Below are positions 50,919 to 52,274 of a stretch of DNA of 64,000 nt, piece by piece. The notes below the pieces were generated by a model. It ran no database searches, was not told the DNA's origin, and was given only the letters and a program-made list of their open reading frames with translations. Position numbers and translations under genes: made by a program. The DNA lies in assembly GCF_025685565.1 (NCBI RefSeq), contig NZ_JAGSYE010000002.1:682001-746000 (forward strand), written 5' to 3'. The stretch's first letter is position 1, and every line of letters starts with the position of its first letter. Source of the DNA: Granulicella aggregans (GTDB lineage: Bacteria; Acidobacteriota; Terriglobia; Terriglobales; Acidobacteriaceae).

Positions 50919-50947
50919 TTGACACTCTTTTTCGCGAAATCTATACC
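50919..50947 (+). promoter_or_regulatory. Near-consensus sigma-70 promoter
   Basis: TTGACA at 50919-50924, 17-base spacer, TATACC at 50942-50947. This is the best promoter match seen in the window and lies 60 bases before the micropeptide start at 51009. Confidence 0.8.
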
Positions 50948-50954
50948 TTCGTTA

Positions 50955-50976
50955 GCTGCAATGCACGTCGTGCAGC
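50955..50976 (+). other. 5' leader hairpin of the micropeptide transcript
   Basis: GCTGCA (50955-50960) pairs with TGCAGC (50971-50976); alternatively TGCAC (50962-50966) with GTGCA (50970-50974). It starts close to the predicted transcription start. Confidence 0.45.
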
Positions 50977-51008
50977 GCACACGCTTGATCACAGGGAGAA
51001 CAGGCAAA

Positions 51009-51065
51009 ATGGCAACGAAGAAGGCAGCCAAGAAGGTCGCAAAGAAGGCAGCGAAGAAGAAGTAA
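51009..51065 (+). CDS. 18-residue Lys/Ala-rich micropeptide (histone-H1-tail-like)
   Basis: ATG 51009 to TAA 51065 encodes MATKKAAKKVAKKAAKKK, with ten lysines and no acidic residue. The composition matches the C-terminal tails of histone H1-like and AlgP-type proteins, here as a free peptide. It is preceded by AGGGAG (50993-50998) ten bases before the ATG, by a near-consensus promoter at 50919-50947, and followed by a perfect 14-bp hairpin, so it appears to be its own short transcription unit of about 160 bases. Expected to bind nucleic acid by charge; this is inference. A small RNA whose reading frame is incidental is the alternative. Confidence 0.6.
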   Translation: MATKKAAKKVAKKAAKKK

Positions 51066-51082
51066 ATCCAACAGGCAAACGC

Positions 51083-51115
51083 AACAAGGGGGACGCTCAT
51101 CGCGTCCCCCTTGTT
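51083..51115. terminator. 14-bp hairpin after the micropeptide gene
   Basis: Perfect stem AACAAGGGGGACGC (51083-51096) / GCGTCCCCCTTGTT (51102-51115) with loop TCATC. The following T-tract is poor (TTGTTAGGTT), so it may also act as a 3' stabiliser. It could serve the minus-strand gene ending at 51191 too. Confidence 0.75.
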
Positions 51116-51190
51116 AGGTTAAGGCGCTTCGTTCGGCTGGGGCCATGCGCGAAAACCCGCATGAACAATGCCTCCGAAGCGCTCCCTCGT

Positions 51191-52036
51191 CTACTGCGGA
51201 GCGTCCGCTCCCTTGGGCGCGTTCTTCGGCGTCGACAGATAGCCCGATACCTTGTTCTTGTCCAACTGGTTCACCACCAATTCGTACAGCACCGGATTCT
51301 TGCCCGTGTAGAACTGCACCGGCTCGTCGAGCCCCTTGTCCTTCTTCTCGATGTTGCGGTCGTCCGCGCTCACGTTCATGGTGTAGCGCGAGTGCTTCTC
51401 GTCCACCTTCTTCAACTGAAGCTTGATCGTCGCCAGCAGCGTTGGCTTGGCACCCTTCTGCAGGGAGAACTCATAGTAGTTCCGGTCGCCCTTGTGCTTC
51501 AGTACTTCGAGCTCGTCGTGGTTCGTCGCGATCAAGCCGCTCATCACGCCCGCATCGCCGACCACGCGGTTCAATTGCGTCTTCGTCGCCTCAAGATCGC
51601 TCTTCGTCGTCGCGACTTCGGTCTTCACGCCGCCCACGTCCGTCTTCACGCTGGCCACGTCGTTCGATACCGCGCCAACCTGCTTCTCGGTCGCAGCCTG
51701 CTGCGCCTGCAGCTTTGCCGCGATATCGCGCTGCGTCGCCTGCGCCGCGAGAAGAGCTTGCGTCTTCAACTCGATCTGCTTCTGGGTCATGCCAACACTC
51801 TGGCCAAGCGTCTCAGTGGTCGCGCGCAGCCGCGCATTGGTCGTGTCCAGCTTCGCCGATAGCTCAGTGTTCTGCTGCTGTGCCTCGGCCAGCTTCTGCT
51901 GGTTCAGGTTCACGTTCTTCTGGAGAAAGTAGCACCAACCCAGCGCGCCAACCGCGCTCAGCAGCGCCACCGCTACGACCGCAAGGAACGCCCCGGAGAC
52001 CGTCCGTTCCACTTCCACTTCCTTCACGTATTCCAT
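51191..52036 (-). CDS. Single-pass membrane protein with periplasmic coiled coil
   Basis: A 281-residue protein. ATG 52036 (MEYVKEVEVERTVSGAF) has GAGGTGA upstream; a frame extends to 52093 without support. One membrane helix (about 15-37: SGAFLAVVAVALLSAVGALGWCYFL) is followed by a long coiled coil (about 40-165) with Gln/Ala/Thr heptads (TRQDIAAKL-like, and repeated DVASVKTDVGGVKTEVATTKSDLEATKTQL), then a C-terminal beta-rich domain (about 190-265; RNYYEFSLQKGAKPTLLATIKLQLKKV). Function unknown; the layout suggests an envelope stalk protein. Confidence 0.72.
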   Translation of the reverse strand: MEYVKEVEVERTVSGAFLAVVAVALLSAVGALGWCYFLQKNVNLNQQKLAEAQQQNTELSAKLDTTNARLRATTETLGQSVGMTQKQIELKTQALLAAQATQRDIAAKLQAQQAATEKQVGAVSNDVASVKTDVGGVKTEVATTKSDLEATKTQLNRVVGDAGVMSGLIATNHDELEVLKHKGDRNYYEFSLQKGAKPTLLATIKLQLKKVDEKHSRYTMNVSADDRNIEKKDKGLDEPVQFYTGKNPVLYELVVNQLDKNKVSGYLSTPKNAPKGADAPQ

Positions 52037-52274
52037 CGCTTCACCTCGTGCCTTCGACTTGTACCTTCGAACTGATGGACGCGCACCTGCCATCCTGCAA
52101 CTGAATCAAACGCTCTCTCATCCTACAGGCGGAGACCAGAGCTCTGAGGCGGTAAATTTTTCCGTGCCGCTCCGTGATGCGTTTTCGCCTTACTGCCTTA
52201 GACGCAACACTCCCATCTTTCGACGAATGCTTTTGACCGATCCCCGCGACCGCTGCCGCCTTAGACTTGAACGT

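Follow-up and report, generated by a model that had tools for sequence, protein, structure and literature searches.

In the enteric SgrS/SgrT system, some homologues (Yersinia; E. coli O157) lack the ORF or its start codon while the RNA is kept (PMC4021124). AlgP has an N-terminal domain of 124 aa and a C-terminal region of 195 aa; its tail is DNA-binding, and the protein is found at polyphosphate granules (PMC9239181). A candidate structured RNA of Acidobacteria, Acido-1 (RF01686), has also been described (PMC2864571). The locus analysed here appears to be an ancient transcription unit of about 170 nt, with a strong housekeeping-type promoter and, as far as its letters allow us to judge, two products: a very short Lys/Ala peptide and a small RNA. 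We did not find an earlier description of this unit in the open-access literature.

Layout of the unit in the window

The window, the whole 64 kb stretch of DNA that was analysed, comes from a genome of 5.7 Mb. All parts of the unit lie on the plus strand. The promoter (50919..50947) was read directly, with TTGACA as -35 (50919-50924), a 17-nt spacer and TATACC as -10 (50942-50947). TTGACA-17-TATACC has no other match in the 64 kb with one mismatch allowed, 0.06 being expected. The -10 element agrees with TATAAT in four of six positions, so a strict sigma-70 scan does not include this promoter. In 30 copies from the window's genus, CTATAC in the -10 region and the adjoining TTCGTTAGCTGC are almost invariant.

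Two leader hairpins follow. Hairpin 1 (GCUGCA/UGCAGC, 50955..50976) is a helix which covaries in 60 copies; hairpin 2 (50983..51005) is a folding prediction, its form in the window's genus being GCUUG/CAGGC with the ribosome binding site in the loop. This site, AGGGAGAACAG, occupies 50993..51003 (AGGGAG is 50993-50998), and its GGGAG box is also found in orthologues which have no ORF. The ORF (51009..51065, ATG to TAA) has 18 codons, encodes MATKKAAKKVAKKAAKKK and is supported by its frame and by pN/pS. Between the stop codon and the last hairpin there is a conserved motif of the GGCAA type, CAGGCAAACGCAAC (51072..51085). The terminator-like hairpin, read and folded, is a perfect helix of 14 bp with the loop UCAUC (51083..51115; arms 51083-51096 and 51102-51115). 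It has no strong T-run in the window; distant orthologues do have one (AGTTTTTT). Looking at 51083-51120 in different genera, we observe that the T-run has been lost in the window's genus and kept in distant ones. Because the hairpin has no good U-run there, termination and Hfq binding are uncertain in this genus. The hairpin possibly serves the convergent gene too.

Direct reading thus found the promoter, leader hairpin, ribosome site, frame and 14-bp hairpin where the preliminary description had placed them; the ten lysines it gave to the peptide are nine by our count. The window contains the string GGGGACGC-N-GCGTCCCC a single time, with 0 expected, and the whole unit is found in at least 30 genomes of the same genus, so it stands far above chance.

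The next gene on the 3' side (51191-52093, minus strand) is convergent, an arrangement which recurs across the genus. It codes for a 300-aa coiled-coil-looking protein, which is syntenic beside the unit throughout the genus and has no match in Pfam. A serine dehydratase gene lies upstream of the unit in g1, g22, g24, g30, Terracidiphilus and related copies. Since it precedes copies with and without the ORF, many of these are positional orthologues.

Distribution and coding selection

Blastn matched the unit in most of 36 genomes of the window's genus. In the window copy and the 29 other same-genus copies examined, the ORF is in frame at the same place in all 30, and peptide length differs by whole codons only. 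A covariance model built from these copies (R1) matches 277 of 299 genomes and 76 of 79 genera of the Acidobacteriaceae; the 277 are an upper bound, some weak matches being K/A-rich stretches of long proteins. We read free-standing units directly in about 20 further genera, where the hairpin is often followed by a good T-run; free-standing copies are found in more than 20 genera of the family.

A broader model (R2) matches 29 of 37 genomes in other families of the class. Most of those full-length matches which we read were free-standing K/A micro-ORFs of 11-26 aa with their own -35/-10 and ribosome site, for example MAKATKKPAKKAAKKTAKKKK, MKNATKKAAKKAVKK.., MKCATKKPAKKKAKKK and MKKKAAKKKKK. 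Similar Lys/Ala micro-ORFs are found in most of the other class families sampled. Several genomes of the neighbouring family f2 have two such loci. The second micro-ORF in f2 (L250, L258, L259, L261, L265, L275, L276) is of the MAAKKKAAKKTAKKKK type; in most of these loci the leader is different and longer, and the ribosome site is AGGAGG. Elsewhere in the phylum there are similar micro-ORFs with unrelated leaders. The low-complexity K/A peptides of distant families could have an independent origin.

The unit was not recognisable in one complete genome of the window's genus (G421) and in most of the sampled g30 genomes. It is therefore not essential. Some other matches were set aside. In the window's own genome, a further DNA match (C1:1299472) is just the Lys/Ala tail of a long protein, second R1 matches (L210, L211) are K/A proteins, and two matches outside Acidobacteria, in Desulfarculales (L093) and a 'Klebsiella' MAG (L135), are chance patterns inside other genes. 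In the long protein of the window's own genome (L002:1023-1976; G000:C1 near 1299472), the N-terminal half is acidic and rich in Asp and Glu, and the C-terminal half is rich in Lys and Ala. Genomes without the ORF have similar acidic proteins with a K/A tail (L337-L339, L346, L352).

The ORF is intact in all 137 distinct copies which carry it, with 13-30 codons. Of the 137 peptides, 131 begin with MATKK; K makes up 51% of the residues, A 36%, T 7% and P 4%. The lengths of 129 distinct coding sequences are all divisible by three, their distance from the ribosome site is maintained, and pS is 0.51-0.63 against a pN of 0.045-0.13, depending on the region (0.71 and 0.14 in the last four codons). 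With pN so much smaller than pS, selection acts on the peptide; judged by these comparisons, the ORF is coding and under strong purifying selection. This agrees with the preliminary description, which had proposed a free-standing, independently transcribed Lys/Ala peptide and a test at codon level: the frame is kept in the 137 copies, length changes are in frame and pN is much lower than pS. Four of the longer peptide homologues had no match in Pfam or NCBIfam.

Codon 2 is a separate case. Its GCA (51012-51014 and orthologues) has an invariant synonymous site in 129 of 129 sequences, while other third positions vary, and AUGGCAAC at this codon repeats the 3' UTR motif GGCAAC. Two loci, L080 and L159, code for divergent peptides with unusual residues (MAAKKAAKKSAKKAAKKTSKKK and MATKKAPAKKTETKAPAKKSSKK).

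RNA conservation and loss of the ORF

The RNA of the unit folds better than 200 of 200 shuffled sequences (z -3.8). In the leader helices of 60 copies there are 71 cells with double changes, compared with 31.6 in shuffles. When leader and terminator-like helices are taken together, 91.7% of the cells are paired (82.6% in shuffles) and 81 show double changes (23.6 in shuffles); slid versions of the helices are 37-48% paired. The terminator-like helix, in 41 copies, is 96.6% paired, with double changes. Outside the window's genus, hairpin 2 is replaced by a covarying helix of the UCGAUG/CAUCGA type just upstream of the ribosome site. At this site AGGGAGAA is invariant in the 30 same-genus copies, the AGGGAGAAYAGRC box is almost invariant in the genus, and GGGAG is invariant in 60 family copies, including those without ORF.

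Of 121 3' UTRs from the inner clade, 110 contain the GGCAA motif, where 5.2 would be expected, and 76 contain the longer AAGGCAA, where 0.8 would be expected. All 24 tails of ORF-less units contain GGCAA, 54 copies in total; in outer genera it is weak (6 of 16). From these comparisons, conservation of the RNA is independent of that of the peptide. Rfam gave no match to threshold for the window locus and seven orthologue loci.

The K/A ORF is absent from all 10 distinct loci examined in g22, from 10 units and five more in g24, and from three units and one more in g30. In all three, promoter, leader, GGGAG box, GGCAA-rich tail and hairpin are kept. The same situation is found in a species belonging to the window's genus (G419, locus L360), whose unit has promoter, hairpins, GGGAG box and GGCAA tail and no K/A ORF. 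In g22 the RNA body (+60 to +120) shows 83-92% identity among ten species; the 120 bp upstream show 25-31%. The g24 units retain relics of the ORF that lack a start codon (ATRTAKKK, ATAQGKAVAKAA). When presence of the ORF is mapped on a rooted rpoB tree, three changes are the minimum, and the genera without it are nested among genera which have it. This nesting, the outgroups with ORF and the start-less relics indicate repeated loss. Alternative ORFs in the g22 tails were considered and rejected: no common frame is kept, and the alignment has a one-base indel. No replacement micro-ORF was found among secondary matches in ORF-less genomes, only long K/A-tailed proteins.

According to the preliminary description, a conserved promoter and hairpin with a lost frame would speak against the peptide and for a small RNA. 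This is what g22, g24, g30 and one same-genus species present; lineages with the ORF do not. Both functions are thus indicated, since the frame is lost with the RNA kept in some lineages only. The suggestion of a dual-function small RNA, made in the preliminary description, gains support from a selected ORF together with ORF-less orthologues which keep the RNA. In summary, across the genomes compared, promoter, structure, frame and motif are conserved, and several lineages have lost the ORF with retention of the RNA.

Explanations and comparison with known systems

We consider it probable, without great confidence, that the unit began, long ago, as the mRNA of a nucleic-acid-binding polycation and became a dual-function RNA, and that the peptide was discarded repeatedly. 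In its first role the transcript would encode a free-standing polycationic micro-protein of 12-30 aa, with about 50% Lys, 36% Ala and a MATKK N-terminus. Its composition and the KPAA tail of AlgP suggest that it is most likely a loose counter-ion of nucleic acid or polyphosphate, like a detached histone-H1/AlgP tail. Within the inner clade of the Acidobacteriaceae, the transcript would in addition be a structured small RNA, made up of the two leader hairpins, the AGGGAG box, a single-stranded motif of the AAGGCAAC type before the terminator hairpin, and this hairpin itself. The RNA probably works by base-pairing or protein binding, perhaps with Hfq, which is encoded in six of six genomes searched. 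Several lineages would have dropped the peptide and retained the RNA. We infer transcription, translation, the partners of the peptide and the role of the RNA from these patterns.

The main rival is a plain mRNA, whose hairpins, AGGGAG box and GGCAA motif would serve stability or translation, while the copies without ORF would be slowly decaying relics. The eroded ORFs of g24 and the loss of the whole unit from most g30 genomes fit it, and in species with the ORF all the features may also be explained as those of an mRNA. Conservation in g22 counts against it: the ORF has left no trace there, yet promoter and RNA body remain similar (83-92%) in 10 species, compared with 25-31% in the upstream flanks. 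GGCAA has multiplied (54 copies in the 24 tails) instead of decaying, and the RNA was kept after several separate losses. We therefore regard the plain mRNA as unlikely, although it deserves to be taken seriously. The opposite suggestion, a small RNA only, with the ORF as an untranslated by-product of an AAGGCA-rich RNA repeat, is improbable. The codons AAG GCA are similar to the GGCAA motif and some lineages do without the ORF, but third positions vary (pS 0.51-0.63) while residues are held (pN 0.045-0.13), indels comprise complete codons, and the start, the stop and the distance to the ribosome site are all preserved. The peptide also persists in class relatives whose leaders differ.

Two further explanations have very little in their favour. 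A Lys-codon leader peptide, part of an attenuator of the downstream gene, would match a short Lys-rich ORF followed by a hairpin; the next gene (51191-52093, minus) is convergent, as it is repeatedly across the genus, so that there is nothing co-directional to attenuate, and such an attenuator is highly improbable. Slighter still is the chance of a CsrA-sequestering RNA of the RsmZ/PrrB type. RF00166 is the best weak Rfam match (18.4 bits, E 0.051) and AGGGA is compatible with ANGGA, but the score is far under the gathering score of 44, and CsrA was not found in six of six genomes searched.

Returning to the dual-function RNA, a wider claim may be put forward tentatively, with slightly less than even confidence: a class-wide, unannotated polycation micro-gene, whose mRNA turned into a regulatory RNA with the AAGGCAAC-type motif, at least four lineages now having a pure small RNA. 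If true, this would be a natural series of an mRNA turning into a non-coding RNA. As a conserved protein family (12-30 aa), the peptides would be among the smallest, spread across an abundant soil phylum and below the usual limits of gene calling. The unit also shows that low-complexity Lys/Ala tails can be free-standing genes under selection. The replicated, phylogenetically placed cases in which the RNA outlives its protein would allow the relative value of both functions to be tested in cultured strains of Edaphobacter, Granulicella and Terracidiphilus.

As regards known systems, the unit differs from Acido-1 (RF01686), to which neither the window locus nor any of seven orthologue loci matched when scanned with Rfam. 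CcaF1 and other small basic RNA-binding DUF1127 proteins (PMC10253847) likewise come from a short transcript, RNA binding being a prediction for our peptide; composition and host are different, and there is no Pfam similarity to DUF1127. The peptide shares with AlgP and the histone H1-like, KPAA-tailed proteins a low-complexity composition rich in Lys and Ala (with or without Pro), here K 51% and A 36%. Unlike AlgP, the tail stands alone, with 12-30 residues and its own promoter; the protein in the window has 18 aa and no N-terminal domain.

The unit would work like a dual-function RNA, a likeness which has been half tested: conservation is found both for the coding sequence and for the RNA. 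It resembles SgrS/SgrT (PMC4021124) in having a 5' small ORF, a conserved motif before the terminator-like hairpin and a host which encodes Hfq, and also in the loss of the ORF from some homologues while the RNA stays. The sequences are unrelated, however, and the peptide here is a polycation, whereas SgrT is a transporter inhibitor. A neighbouring regulator like SgrR was not identified here. Finally, unlike SgrS/SgrT, the present unit is spread across a whole family and beyond.
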